From: Heliobacteriaceae bacterium
GTDB lineage: Bacteria; Bacillota; Desulfitobacteriia; Heliobacteriales; Heliobacteriaceae
Assembly (NCBI GenBank): GCA_028707535.1
Contig: JAQWAU010000011.1
Coordinates: 1-46,413, forward strand
Direction: 5' to 3'
Length of the DNA stretch: 46,413 nt
The position numbers and the translations under genes were made by a program. Of the stretch, positions 17,599 through 38,116 are shown one piece after another. The first letter of the stretch is position 1. Each line of letters starts with the position of its first letter. Below the pieces are notes generated by a model. The model was not told the origin of the DNA and made no database searches. It saw only the letters and a list, made by a program, of their open reading frames with translations.

Positions 17599-17870
17599 GG
17601 CCGTGCACCCGGCTTCGAAAACTACCTTCCAGGCGTTACCCTTGCAGTTAGCTCGGACCAGGCACTCCCACGGCACACGCAAGTGCCTACTTACCGTTGC
17701 TTCCTTCCGGACCTGGCGGGGTTCATAGGGTTCCGTTGCGTAGGACCCAACCGTCAACACCACTTACAAGAGGCTGTCCCTACAAGGCAGACCCTCAAGC
17801 GCGGGAATTAAGCCCCGCTACAGCGGATTGCGGGTAACAAGGCACCGCTAACGCCCCGCCTAGCACGGCC
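17599..17870 (-). ncRNA. ffs: signal recognition particle RNA, large (Bacillus-type)
   Basis: The minus strand contains the SRP domain IV signature CAGGTCCGGAAGGAAGCA with the GTAAGTAGG sequence after it. The 5' GGCCGTGCTAGGCGGGG pairs with the 3' GTGCACGGCC to close a molecule of about 272 nt. The 5' part (GTTAGCGGTGCC, GCAATCCGC) is the Alu-like domain of Gram-positive spore formers. tRNA-Ser lies just upstream and may share its promoter. Confidence 0.93.
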
Positions 17871-17886
17871 AAAATTGACCCAAAGC

Positions 17887-17980
17887 TGGCGGAGAGAGTG
17901 GGATTCGAACCCACGAGGCAGGTCATCCCCGCCTACGCGATTTCCAGTCGCGCGCCTTCGACCAACTCAGCCATCTCTCC
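17887..17980 (-). tRNA. tRNA-Ser(GGA)
   Basis: Class II tRNA of about 94 nt with a long variable arm, acceptor GGAGAGA/TCTCTCC, anticodon loop CTGGAAA (anticodon GGA), discriminator G and encoded CCA. Confidence 0.95.
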
Positions 17981-28045: not shown

Positions 28046-28111
28046 GCTTAAATCCCCGCAGATCTCCGAGCCAACCGGCCTAAACCGGCACGGCATGGTA
28101 GTTGGCCATCG

Positions 28112-28135
28112 GGTGTAGCCGGAAACGGCTACACC
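28112..28135 (+). other. GAAA-tetraloop hairpin in the fdhA leader
   Basis: GGTGTAGCCG pairs perfectly with CGGCTACACC around GAAA. There is no T tract, so it is more likely an mRNA stability or processing element, or a signal setting fdhA expression apart from the upstream subunits, than a terminator. Confidence 0.6.
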
Positions 28136-28165
28136 TCCCATTATGGAAAGGAGCGAGGTTTTTCG

Positions 28166-34340: not shown

Positions 34341-34376
34341 AGAAAGGAGGTTCCCTCCCTTTCTAGTTTTTTGTTC
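34341..34376. terminator. terminator overlapping the pheA stop
   Basis: AGAAAGGAGG pairs with CCTCCCTTTCT around a short loop. The plus strand continues to a T6 run and the minus strand to TTATG. The hairpin includes the pheA stop codon at 34363-34365. Confidence 0.65.
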
Positions 34377-34938
34377 GGATAACCTGCTTGGCTTGGGTCA
34401 CCACCCAGAAGCGCGTAATATTTTCCGGAAAATCGTTAGCCACCGGAATCAGCACCTGCAGGCCATACACTGCGGCCGCCCGGGCGGGACCTAAAGCAGC
34501 CCACGGCTCTTTGCCCCGCCCGATTAACTTTGCCGCTGCAGCGGTGCTGATCGTCGCGACCCAGGCAGCTTCCGGCAAATGCTCCTGCAAAAATCGCCGG
34601 CATTGGATAAACGCATGCTGGTGGGAAAAAATCTTAGTTATCTGGGCCAAATTTACCCCCGGCCGGACCAGCAAAGCCTGGTTCACCGGCACCAACACCT
34701 CACCACAGGCCGTTAAATCAACCGCACCGGTAAAAAGGTCAAGGACCGGTTTGATCGCCCCACTGATGGAGTTTTCCACGGGAACTACGCCCACATCCAG
34801 ACTCCCGGCGGCTACCTGGTTGAAAATTTCTTCCCAGGAGGAACAAGCCACTAAAGCCCCCGGGGTTTCCGCCCGGTACCGGGAAGCCGCCTCTTCCGAG
34901 AAGGTGCCCCGGGGGCCCAAATAGCCAATGCGCTTCAT
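34363..34938 (-). CDS. pheA: prephenate dehydratase, catalytic domain only
   Basis: Prephenate to phenylpyruvate + CO2 + H2O, the last committed step to phenylalanine. 191 residues starting MKRIGYLGPRGTFSEEAA, with VPVENSISGAI and the essential TRF in ENITRFWVV. It ends about 11 residues after that motif, so the C-terminal ACT domain that gives phenylalanine feedback in most homologues is absent. The true ATG is 34938, overlapping the aroF stop by 4 nt with GGAG 4 nt upstream; an upstream start at 35046 lies inside aroF. Control then probably rests with the T-box. Confidence 0.93.
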   Translation of the reverse strand: MKRIGYLGPRGTFSEEAASRYRAETPGALVACSSWEEIFNQVAAGSLDVGVVPVENSISGAIKPVLDLFTGAVDLTACGEVLVPVNQALLVRPGVNLAQITKIFSHQHAFIQCRRFLQEHLPEAAWVATISTAAAAKLIGRGKEPWAALGPARAAAVYGLQVLIPVANDFPENITRFWVVTQAKQVIRTKN

Positions 34939-35963
34939 AGCGCTCCACCCCCGCCGACAGCCCGCCCTACCGCGGCGGCTACCGGCTGTAATTCCTGCAT
35001 TAAAGCAACGAACGCTTCCGGGGTAAGCGACTGGGCCCCATCGCAAAGCGCCCGGCCTGGATCCGGGTGAACTTCAACGATTAAGCCATCTGCTCCGGCA
35101 GCTACCGCCGCCCGGGCCATCGGCCCGACCAAATCCCGGTCTCCGGTGGCGTGACTGGGGTCCACCATTACCGGCAGATGGCTGCGCTTTTTAACCAGGG
35201 CTACCGCACTTAAATCCAAGGTGTTGCGGGTAGCAATTTCAAAAGTGCGAATCCCCCGCTCACAAAGCACCACATTTTCGTTGCCGGACGCCACAATATA
35301 CTCAGCGGCCAGCAACCACTCTTCGACAGTGGCCGCAAACCCCCGTTTCAACAACACCGGTTTTCCGGAACGTCCTACCGCTTGCAACAACCGGAAATTC
35401 TGCATATTCCGGGAGCCGATCTGCACCAGATCAACATAGGTCAAGGCCAATTCCAAACTAGCCTCATCCACAACTTCCGTTATGGTAAGTAACCCCGTCA
35501 AGGCCCCAACCGCCGCCAGTAATTCCAGCCCCTTAACCTCCAGCCCCTGGAAGCTGTAAGGGGAACTCCGGGGTTTGAAGGCACCCCCCCGGAGTACCAC
35601 CGCCCCGGCCCGGCTTACCTGTTGCGCCGTATCCAGCAATTGCTCCCAGCTTTCCACCGCACACGGGCCGGCAATCACCGTCAGGTCCCGGCCCCCGATC
35701 ACCAGGTCTTTTACCTTGACCAAACTAGTTTCCCCACCTAAGTCCCGGCTGACCAATTTATATGGCTGCCGGACAGGTACAACCCGGTCTACTCCCGGCA
35801 TGGCCGCCAAGGCCTGGTGATCGATACCCCCTTTCCCCGCCGCCCCGATGATCAAGCCCCGGGCTCCTTTCACCGCCTGCATTACATAGCCTGCTTGCAC
35901 TAATTTCTGTTGGACCGCCCCGATCTGCTCCGCCCGGGCGGCTAATTCCATGACCACAATCAC
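34935..35963 (-). CDS. aroF: 3-deoxy-7-phosphoheptulonate synthase, type I-beta
   Basis: First step of the shikimate pathway: phosphoenolpyruvate + erythrose 4-phosphate to DAHP. 342 residues: an N-terminal ferredoxin-like regulatory domain (about 1-70) and the TIM barrel with VIAGPCAVES, GGAFKPRSSPYSFQG, KRGFAATVEEW and MVDPSHATG. GTG start with AAGGAGGA 6 nt before. It is the first gene behind the T-box leader and is translationally coupled to pheA. Confidence 0.96.
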   Translation of the reverse strand: MIVVMELAARAEQIGAVQQKLVQAGYVMQAVKGARGLIIGAAGKGGIDHQALAAMPGVDRVVPVRQPYKLVSRDLGGETSLVKVKDLVIGGRDLTVIAGPCAVESWEQLLDTAQQVSRAGAVVLRGGAFKPRSSPYSFQGLEVKGLELLAAVGALTGLLTITEVVDEASLELALTYVDLVQIGSRNMQNFRLLQAVGRSGKPVLLKRGFAATVEEWLLAAEYIVASGNENVVLCERGIRTFEIATRNTLDLSAVALVKKRSHLPVMVDPSHATGDRDLVGPMARAAVAAGADGLIVEVHPDPGRALCDGAQSLTPEAFVALMQELQPVAAAVGRAVGGGGAL

Positions 35964-35983
35964 CGCGATTCCTCCTTAACCGG

Positions 35984-36442
35984 AAAAATAAAAAACCTGC
36001 CGCTCCCCTAAAATAGGGACGAAAGCGGCAGGCTTCCGCGGTACCACCCTAATTGGCCTAACCAGGCCCACTCAAAAAAAGGTACGGGAAAACGCTCCCT
36101 TAATTTAAGGGGTTTTAGGGTAGCCGAAAAACAAAAAAAGCCTCCCGCCCATCAGGGACGGGAAACTTTCGCTTACCGCGTTACCACCCTGGTTGGTCCG
36201 CCTACAACAGGCAAAGACCCCCCTCAAAAAGAGTACGGGAAAAACCTTCCGATACCCCCTCCCAGATAACGTCGGGAGCTTACGGCCAAACCTACTTAAC
36301 GCCATCGCGTTTTCAGCCGGCATCTCCGGAGCGAACTTCAACCGGTCATGTCCTGGGTGTGCTTCCAGTCGGTGACACTCCCTCCCTGGCGAACTGGGTC
36401 CGGTCTACTTTTCTCCTTCATCAACTCTTTACAGATAATGTG
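35984..36442 (-). promoter_or_regulatory. T-box leader with one Stem I and two terminator modules
   Basis: Transcribed from the promoter at 36449-36477. Stem I spans about 36327-36416: GGAG pairs with CTCC, an AGTA-containing internal loop faces GAAGTTCG, and TTC at 36333-36335 is the likely specifier (Phe). T-box 1 (AGGGTGGTAACGCGG, 36176-36192) is followed by a terminator at 36132-36165 with a T7 run. T-box 2 (AGGGTGGTACCGCGG, 36036-36050) is followed by a second terminator (35984-36032) with a T6 run. Both carry TGGT, fitting a tRNA with discriminator A such as tRNA-Phe. The 80-odd bases between the modules leave no room for a second Stem I. Confidence 0.88.
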
Positions 36443-36448
36443 GGACGA

Positions 36449-36477
36449 ATTATACCACCATCTCTACGGAATGTCAA
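36449..36477 (-). promoter_or_regulatory. consensus sigma-A promoter of the aroF-pheA T-box operon
   Basis: Minus-strand TTGACA (36472-36477), exactly 17 bp, TATAAT (36449-36454). The -35 overlaps the rlmH stop codon. Confidence 0.92.
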
Positions 36478-36962
36478 CGGTGATAAATTTCTCCCCGGAT
36501 AATTTTATATGCCCGATAAACCTGTTCGGCTACCATTAACCGGGCCAATTGGTGGGGAAAAGTGAGCCGGGATAAGGACCAACGATATCGGGAGGTGGCC
36601 AGGACCTCGGGAGCCAACCCCAAGGTACCCCCAAGATAAAACACCACCGGACCTGACCCATAGACTTCCCATTCCGAAAGCCGTTTGGCCAGCTCCTCTG
36701 AAGACCACATTTCCCCGGCCGGATCCAGAGCGACAGCCAACGCATCACGGGTAACCCGGGCAGTCGCCGCCAGGAGCCGCTGCCCCTCCCGGCTTTTAAT
36801 CACCCGCGCTTCATTGGCCGATGGGTGATCCGGCACTTTTTCCTCATTTGCTTCCAAGATAGTTAAACGGACGTAAGCACCCAGGCGTTTTTCATATTCC
36901 CGGAGGCCGGCCTGCAGATACGGCGCTTTAATCCGGCCAACGGCAGCCACCACCACACGCAT
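36474..36962 (-). CDS. rlmH: 23S rRNA pseudouridine(1915) N3-methyltransferase RlmH
   Basis: SPOUT-class SAM methyltransferase acting on 70S ribosomes. 162 residues with VVAAVGRIKAPYLQAGLREYEKRL at the start (shown in part), the knot motif FYLGGTLGLAPEVL and the C-terminal LPHQLARLM-like TFPHQLARLMVAEQVYRAY and IRGEIYHR ending. ATG at 36962 overlaps the htrA stop by one base (TGATG). Confidence 0.95.
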   Translation of the reverse strand: MRVVVAAVGRIKAPYLQAGLREYEKRLGAYVRLTILEANEEKVPDHPSANEARVIKSREGQRLLAATARVTRDALAVALDPAGEMWSSEELAKRLSEWEVYGSGPVVFYLGGTLGLAPEVLATSRYRWSLSRLTFPHQLARLMVAEQVYRAYKIIRGEIYHR

Positions 36963-38116
36963 CAACCTTGCGGCAACTCCCCTAATACCACCGGTACAAC
37001 CAGCTTTTTGTCTTCCCTGACCACCGTGATCTCCACGCTATCCCCCACTTTGTGCTCAAACAATTCTTTTTGCAGATCGACACCCCGGCGGACCTCTTTG
37101 CCGTTAAAGGCGATCACAATGTCATTATTTTGGAGGCCGGCCCGCTGCGCCGGTCCGCCAGGCAAAGCCCTAATCACAACCCCATAATCGACAATCAGAT
37201 TATACTGTTTGGCCATCTCTTTATCGATGTCCAAACTTAAGGTTACCCCCAAGGCCGGCCGGGTGATTTTCCCTTTCGACCGGAGTTCATCGACAATCTG
37301 CACCACTTGATTAGACGGGATTGCAAAACCCATGCCTTCAAAACCGGAGATCGCGATCTTGATCGAGTTAATCCCGATCACCTCCCCGTTGGCATTGAGC
37401 AACGCCCCACCCGAATTCCCCGGGTTAATCGCGGCATCGGTCTGAATTAAATTAAAAGCGAAACCTTCCGGTGTGGTCAACTGGCGGTTCAACCCGGAAA
37501 CAATCCCTGCCGTCACCGAACCGGCAAACTCTTTACCCCCCGGGTTGCCGATGGCGATCGCCGGTTCCCCTACGTTCACCTGACCGGAATCACCGAACTT
37601 GGCCACCGGCAGGTTGTCCAGGTCCACCTTAATTACCGCCAGATCGGTCCGCGGATCAGAACCGACTAAAGTGGCCCGGGCGGTCCGGCCATCCGGTACG
37701 GACACCACCAGTTCGGCCGCATTAGCAACCACGTGATGGTTGGTAACGATATACCCGAGGCCGTCAAAAATCACCCCGGAACCGGTACCCACTTCTTCAA
37801 TCCTTTGGCGGGTAAAAAGGCCACCGGCCCGGGCCCGGTTGGATATCCCGACAACCGCCGGCCCAACGGCCGTGGCTACCTGGACAATCCGGCTGCTATT
37901 GACGATGCTCGCCGGGTCGGTCACCGGCGCCGGTAAAGCATAGCCGCCCGGAGCAAGTGGCGCCGGCGCCGGCGTCCCTTTTTGAACAAAATACTGCGAA
38001 AAATAGCCGCCTAAAAAGGCCGCAATCAAGGCCACGATAAAATAGGAAAAAAGGCCGCCGAACCGCCGCTTCGGGTTGCCGCCTGTTGACGAATAAGATT
38101 CGTTATAATAATCCAC
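36962..38116 (-). CDS. htrA: HtrA/DegP-like membrane-anchored serine protease
   Basis: Extracytoplasmic quality-control protease of 384 residues. A cytoplasmic Lys/Arg-rich N-terminus precedes one transmembrane helix (about 22-43), then a Pro/Ala linker, a trypsin domain with triad His128 (TNHHVVANA), Asp158 (DPRTDLAVIKVD) and Ser235 (NPGNSGGALLN), and one PDZ domain (about 285-380, YGVVIRALPGGPAQRAGLQ). GTG start with GGGGTGG 7 nt upstream. Cotranscribed with rlmH. Confidence 0.95.
   Translation of the reverse strand: MDYYNESYSSTGGNPKRRFGGLFSYFIVALIAAFLGGYFSQYFVQKGTPAPAPLAPGGYALPAPVTDPASIVNSSRIVQVATAVGPAVVGISNRARAGGLFTRQRIEEVGTGSGVIFDGLGYIVTNHHVVANAAELVVSVPDGRTARATLVGSDPRTDLAVIKVDLDNLPVAKFGDSGQVNVGEPAIAIGNPGGKEFAGSVTAGIVSGLNRQLTTPEGFAFNLIQTDAAINPGNSGGALLNANGEVIGINSIKIAISGFEGMGFAIPSNQVVQIVDELRSKGKITRPALGVTLSLDIDKEMAKQYNLIVDYGVVIRALPGGPAQRAGLQNNDIVIAFNGKEVRRGVDLQKELFEHKVGDSVEITVVREDKKLVVPVVLGELPQG

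Follow-up and report, generated by a model that had tools for sequence, protein, structure and literature searches.

How might a single tRNA sensor act on two terminators placed in series? The question is raised by a minus-strand leader of ~450 nt. With its promoter it lies in the ~0.5-kb region that separates rlmH (36474-36965) from a DAHP synthase gene (34935-35963), within the 46,413-nt stretch of DNA analyzed here, which we refer to as the window. Within the leader region (36477-35984, minus strand) one promoter and one Stem I are followed by two complete Stem III/T-box/terminator modules. The Stem I of a T-box holds the tRNA by its anticodon and elbow, supplying most of the tRNA affinity and all of the codon specificity, and the free 3′ end of an uncharged tRNA stabilizes the antiterminator. 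As there is a single Stem I, control of module 2 at equal specificity would require that module 2, too, reaches the tRNA bound there.

Architecture of the leader

The elements of the leader and the genes that follow it are listed in the order of transcription.

36449-36477, minus strand: promoter, with TTGACA at 36472-36477, a 17-nt spacer, TATAAT at 36449-36454 and an extended -10 (TG); 12 of 12 consensus positions
36319-36427, minus strand: the single Stem I, from the RF00230 alignment (82.5 bits together with module 1)
36285-36324, minus strand: Stem II, from the RF00230 alignment and the sequence
36258-36285, minus strand: Stem IIA/B region, with the F-box (CGTTA) and a CUCCC/GGGAG pairing, from the RF00230 alignment and the sequence
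36195-36225, minus strand: Stem III of module 1 (fold -10.6 kcal/mol; RF00230 alignment)
36153-36191, minus strand: antiterminator 1, with T-box AGGGUGGUAACGCGG at 36176-36190 (fold -13.4 kcal/mol), comprising A1, a 7-nt UGGU bulge and A2
36132-36166, minus strand: terminator 1 and its T-run, the hairpin at 36140-36166 and the T-run to 36132 (fold -21.2 kcal/mol)
36055-36073, minus strand: Stem III of module 2 (fold -6.8 kcal/mol)
36014-36051, minus strand: antiterminator 2, with T-box AGGGUGGUACCGCGG at 36036-36050 (fold -13.9 kcal/mol; RF00230 42.4 bits alone)
35984-36032, minus strand: terminator 2 and its T-run (fold -23.4 kcal/mol)
34935-35963, minus strand: regulated gene 1, DAHP synthase of the aroF type (NF006421 476 bits, TIGR01361 389 bits)
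34363-34938, minus strand: regulated gene 2, encoding only the catalytic domain of prephenate dehydratase (PF00800 189.5 bits, 180 of 181 positions)

The two T-box cores, AGGGTGGTAACGCGG (36176-36190) and AGGGTGGTACCGCGG (36036-36050), form a pattern that is expected 0.00 times in the shuffled window. Antiterminator 2, like antiterminator 1, has a 7-nt bulge with UGGU. Each module folds in two mutually exclusive ways, antiterminator and terminator sharing the CCGUCCC/CGUCCC strand, and in both modules folding gives the terminator as the more stable.

A scan of the entire window with RF00230 gave no T-box match at or above the gathering score. Aligned over the whole leader, RF00230 scores 85.9 bits (E 3.6e-19), and both this score and that of the split leader (82.5) lie below the gathering score of 93, which is a curation cut-off and not a biological property. 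In the whole-leader match the low score coincides with an insert of 190 nt, and in the split match with a long linker. The insert is module 1, and the score is lowered because the model bridges it in joining Stem I to the second T-box. All the T-box structural elements align, and the assignment therefore rests on the elements and not on the gathering score. Other leaders that fall below the threshold in this way may be under-annotated.

When the leader was divided in two, Stem I with module 1 scored 82.5 bits (model positions 1-219), and module 2 alone gave 42.4 bits (E 1.2e-8), carried by its Stem III/antiterminator part, with no Stem I. The 140 nt between the cores consist mostly of terminator 1, Stem III of module 2 and a short linker, so that a second Stem I could not be accommodated there. 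The leader is thus a partially tandem T-box and not a fully tandem one, which would have a second Stem I between the modules. The second modules of two relatives (G004 and G005) likewise align with RF00230 positions 146-216 only. A second Stem I was also looked for in two leaders with 240-nt spacing (L137 and L139) and rejected, as none was found. A promoter scan of 35900-36600 gave no other promoter-like match, and thus none between the modules that could serve as an internal promoter for module 2.

A preliminary description of this DNA had read it as a consensus promoter, one Stem I and two successive T-box/terminator modules. RF00230 alignment and folding confirm that reading, with coordinates correct to within a base or two, and a covariance-model check for a second Stem I between the modules found none. 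The further claim that the distal part of the leader was duplicated without its Stem I is borne out by module 2, which matches RF00230 by its 3′ part alone. The same description had suggested specificity for tRNA-Phe, and this too is supported. The specifier UUC (Phe) lies at 36333-36335, within GAAGUUCGC, and fits the pathway of the aroF-pheA genes downstream; the tRNA-Phe(GAA) of the organism ends in GGCACCA, and its ACCA can pair with the UGGU bulges of both modules. We conclude that the leader is a partially tandem, transcriptional T-box of the phenylalanine pathway, placed upstream of an aroF-pheA operon.

The Shine-Dalgarno sequence AAGGAGG of the DAHP synthase gene lies at 35971-35977. 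NF008865 covers the prephenate dehydratase (34363-34938, minus strand) by the first 189 of its 284 positions alone; no ACT regulatory domain was matched in this gene, and there is no obvious remnant of one downstream. Lost allosteric control might raise the need for tight control of transcription.

Two-module leaders are common

In 84,980 species genomes we searched for pairs of T-box cores spaced ~103-163 nt and enclosing a T-run. The pattern occurred in at least 119 DNA stretches, most of them belonging to Clostridia-type Bacillota, so that the arrangement of one Stem I and two modules is not unique but common; repeats in Nostoc and Akkermansia that matched the pattern are not T-boxes and were dropped. 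Among the matches listed, 63 of 126 extracted pairs precede DAHP synthase, and the other downstream genes, grouped and named by reading their sequences, include those for branched-chain-type binding proteins, sodium-solute symporters, phosphoserine-aminotransferase-like and phenylacetate-CoA-ligase-like proteins, and more. Two modules precede one of the DAHP synthase genes in seven of eight other genomes of the window's own family, with spacings of 158-240 nt, and one family member (G006) has a single module before DAHP synthase.

The variable base of UGGN agrees between the modules in 87 of 92 nonredundant pairs, where 70 are expected (0 of 20,000 permutations), and these include UGGC pairs before serC-like genes. 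UUC stands at the specifier place in 60 of the 61 readable partially tandem aroF leaders, the single exception being UAC. Together these two observations indicate that neither module is dispensed with and that the two are matched to one and the same tRNA. By an automatic test a terminator-like hairpin with a T-run is present in 91 of 92 first modules and in 77 of 92 second modules. Since both modules are kept over a wide group of bacteria, series control of the two terminators by one tRNA species is plausible.

The presence of a complete Stem III, T-box bulge and antiterminator in module 2 would be consistent with the binding there of a second uncharged tRNA, through the UGGN bulge and without Stem I, so that two tRNA molecules would be sensed. 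Lacking a Stem I, however, such a module could not tell tRNA-Phe from other tRNAs ending in ACCA, and we regard this explanation as very improbable. The reading that we prefer is that both modules are served by the one tRNA bound to Stem I, and the linker between sensor and modules suggests how this might be achieved.

A linker helix with a repeated 3′ strand

The preliminary description had noted that the same flank, TTTTCCCGTAC, precedes each module, and had taken it as a footprint of duplication. The repeat is real, but it is not a duplication footprint alone, as it is also the 3′ strand of a helix in the linker. We call this strand the eye. Its 5′ partner, the hook (GGUAUCGGA), has not been duplicated and is present once, after the IIA/B pseudoknot. 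In the window the three strands are as follows.

36247-36258, minus strand: hook, GGGGUAUCGGAA, the 5′ strand of the linker helix, present in one copy immediately after Stem IIA/B; conserved in relatives, where it covaries with eye 2
36231-36241, minus strand: eye 1, UUCCCGUACUC, forming a local hairpin with the hook (-8.2 kcal/mol); conserved in one-module leaders too
36081-36099, minus strand: eye 2, UUUUCCCGUACC at 36081-36092, with its 5′ flank; duplex with the hook -11.4 to -13.8 kcal/mol

Eye 2 can replace eye 1 as the partner of the hook and of the hook's loop. Almost all DAHP-synthase leaders have a GGGUAUCGGA-loop-UCCCGUACC hairpin after the IIA/B pseudoknot, and in these UCCCGUACC recurs before Stem III of module 2 while the hook GGUAUCGGA does not. 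Moreover, eye 2 is often flanked by the complement of the hook loop, as in L113 (loop AUGUUUAU, flank AUAAACAU) and in L013, L026, L093, L121 and L126. Eye 1 cannot pair with the loop bases that the flank of eye 2 pairs with. The two eyes lie at similar distances from their T-box cores, with medians of 34 nt for eye 1 and 31 nt for eye 2.

The window belongs to the group defined here by its hook/eye linker, in that the pairing is present in the window and the covariation in the group, the latter being weak for the window alone. Its cognate hook:eye-2 duplex has an energy of -13.8 against -12.6 with the eyes of other species, a small margin, and the fold of the whole leader without tRNA favors hook:eye-1 by 4.7 kcal/mol; the duplex energies take no account of loop closure over ~150 nt, of kinetics or of tRNA. 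With so small a signal of its own, and a fold that favors eye 1, the case for hook:eye-2 pairing rests on the relatives.

Covariation of the hook with eye 2

For 68 nonredundant leaders the duplex of hook plus loop with eye 2 has an energy of -13.5 for cognate pairs and -10.9 for permuted pairs (z = -10.3), a difference reached in 0 of 20,000 permutations; because the leaders are related by descent, such counts overstate independence and are not strict probabilities. Stricter removal of redundancy gave 0 of 20,000 at both 80% (44 leaders) and 72% (28 leaders), and 92 of 20,000 at 66% (19 leaders). As controls we used reversed strands, seven segments from elsewhere in the leader and further downstream stretches. 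The reversed sequences and most of the other segments gave z between -1.9 and +1.1, with two at -3.2 and -3.7. One of these two is a segment lying 70 nt ahead of the F-box; the other is the Stem III-2 stretch, part of which may coincide with eye 2 where the leader is short. A raw sliding duplex profile also peaked at the hook but was confused by G-rich segments, and the permutation tests were used in its place.

Counting the loop alone, contiguous pairing with eye 2 beyond the conserved core extends over 2.0 pairs against 0.8 on permutation (0 of 20,000). The flanks of eye 1 and eye 2 resemble each other at a level near background (3.7 of 11 positions against 3.3 permuted). Since the flanks are barely alike, the loop pairing is not a by-product of copying, and eye 2 is more than a duplicate of eye 1.

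These results bear on another explanation, in which the distal part of the leader was plainly duplicated, the two modules simply read the tRNA held by Stem I one after the other by way of a flexible linker, and eye 2 is a leftover of eye 1 whose pairing with the hook reflects descent alone. The cores of the eyes are indeed alike (UCCCGUACC), modules 1 and 2 are recognizably related, and there exist partially tandem leaders with no hook, showing that not every such leader requires it. Against this, the flank of eye 2 pairs specifically with the variable hook loop of its own leader, eye 1 does not have that flank, and the flanks of the two eyes are nearly unrelated. Nor is much leftover similarity seen. 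The two modules are ~61% identical in aroF leaders and 69% identical in the window, and similarity is hardly higher within a leader (0.613) than between leaders (0.591). We therefore think plain duplication unlikely, though it deserves to be taken seriously. A recent duplication in this lineage is likewise unsupported, as the family relatives share both modules and similarity within leaders is about that between them.

Individual changes agree with this pairing. Where the hook has G to A, both eyes always have C to U (7 of 7 and 6 of 6 nonredundant leaders, mostly from one lineage and so representing few events), and in L082 the strands are wholly changed (ACAGGA; UCCUGU; UUCUGU) and still pair.

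A second set of leaders was fetched by the hook and first T-box, disregarding module 2; its species partly overlap those of the first. Here 34 nonredundant two-module leaders gave a hook/eye-2 energy of -15.6 for cognate pairs and -13.0 for permuted pairs (z = -7.3), and in 41 one-module leaders there was no signal in the matching stretch (z = -0.6). Pairing with eye 2 was stronger than the hook:eye-1 hairpin in all 34 two-module leaders. This hairpin is weaker in two-module than in one-module leaders (-9.4 against -11.4 kcal/mol, p = 0.002) and its loop is shorter (8 against 11.5 nt, p = 0.0004). We conclude from these sequence comparisons that the hook covaries with eye 2 across the group, including variable bases with which eye 1 does not pair.

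The hook hairpin was considered as a mark of tandem leaders alone and rejected. It was present in 29 of 30 of a class sample, but in a phylum sample it accompanied a T-box in 78 of 399 genomes, many of them with one module. No specific partner strand was found in 21 nonredundant hookless partially tandem leaders, where composition effects were seen everywhere. One hookless leader, from Priestia endophytica (L059), is a partially tandem leader before DAHP synthase with what is apparently a UAC (Tyr) specifier; its arrangement is probably of independent origin.

A possible handover of the bound tRNA

On balance we think it probable that one sensor serves the two modules by exchange of the hook from eye 1 to eye 2, which would pass the tRNA held by Stem I from the first module on to the second. 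The hook would pair first with eye 1, placing module 1 beside the tRNA held by Stem I, and an uncharged tRNA-Phe would then favor antiterminator 1. Eye 2 would be made only once the polymerase had passed terminator 1. It would then pair with the hook, joined in many relatives by the loop of the hook in the manner of a toehold, and displace eye 1. Because eye 2 is generally the stronger partner of the hook, docking should move to module 2 once eye 2 has been made. With the hook attached to the sensor and the eyes at a like distance from their T-boxes, each module would be docked in the same position, module 2 taking the former place of module 1, and the same bound tRNA would be tested a second time. 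Both terminators would have to be passed, cutting the leak twice, and the response should be steeper. We infer that the exchange would take place during transcription, that one tRNA molecule could be handed over, and that the response would be affected in this way.

Covariation shows pairing and not purpose, and the hook:eye-2 helix could have some other role, such as folding module 1 out of the finished mRNA, protection from decay or a switch in translation. Some second modules are without a clear T-run (L014, L074, L127 and others), and in L074 and L127 the sequence is such that CGUCCCU of module 2 could pair with the ribosome-binding site GGAGGGAU. Yet the second module is a hairpin with a T-run in 77 of 92 leaders by the automatic test, and the agreement of the UGGN base between modules points to tRNA sensing at both. 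We consider such other roles improbable.

We would give even chances to the broader proposal that partially tandem T-boxes contain a strand-exchange relay, in which a strand linked to the sensor would pair in turn with a matching strand ahead of each module and one tRNA would be read serially. Such a riboswitch would have a single aptamer that addresses several expression platforms through programmed branch migration.

Comparison with known systems

The leader shares with partially tandem T-boxes its one Stem I and more than one antiterminator/terminator; these are reportedly covered by Vitreschak et al. 2008 as well. A review names them without details and says that their modes of action remain unknown (PMC7583486). 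The hook/eye helix would offer a concrete, mutable mechanism for the question left there. No description of hook/eye pairing was found in the literature searched; leaders of this form may be listed in older T-box surveys (Vitreschak 2008, Gutierrez-Preciado 2009). We regard the leader as a well-anchored member of a known form, and the helix described here, conserved and covarying, as one that could supply the mechanism this form has lacked.

Like the aromatic amino-acid class of RF00230 T-boxes, the leader has Stem I with a specifier loop, Stem II, IIA/B, Stem III, a T-box bulge and an antiterminator/terminator, and amino-acid synthesis is regulated. It differs from an ordinary RF00230 T-box in having two discriminator/terminator modules per Stem I and in the repetition of the 3′ strand of the linker hairpin. 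In fully tandem T-boxes (trp, ilv, thrS and others) there are two complete sensors, and two tRNAs are bound (PMC12452182); they too place two terminators in series that respond to tRNA, a response that for the present leader is predicted. The survey classes of that paper do not include an arrangement of one sensor and two platforms. Tandem riboswitch architectures also have more than one expression platform in series with a steeper response predicted, but in the portion of that account drawn on here each platform goes with its own aptamer (PMC9481103). If the proposed mechanism is correct, the known riboswitch architectures would gain a design with one aptamer and multiple platforms, whose simplicity would allow it to be borrowed for lowering leak in synthetic RNA switches.

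Additional observations

In one leader, from Desulfosporosinus sp. BRH_c37 (L126; LOEW01000246.1), a single hook is followed by three T-box modules at spacings of 121-122 nt, upstream of a peptidase-like open reading frame. Pairing is strong for its eye 2 (-15.3) and weak for its eye 3 (-7.6), and the third module lacks a clear terminator ahead of the gene. Here the same bound tRNA is possibly read out three times in series.

The second modules of L074 and L127 (Desulforamulus), and also those of L017 and L123, have no obvious T-run, and their CGUCCCU could pair with a GGAGGGA ribosome-binding site. In these leaders one sensor may possibly govern transcription through the first module and translation through the second.

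Elsewhere in the same genome there is a 387-nt low-scoring T-box match with a single clear core (L010; G000:C93:27257-27643). The window also contains a large bacterial SRP RNA at 17601-17868 (minus strand), with a tRNA just upstream at 17890-17980, and a molybdenum/tungsten cofactor riboswitch at 28052-28164 (plus strand; 66.9 bits).
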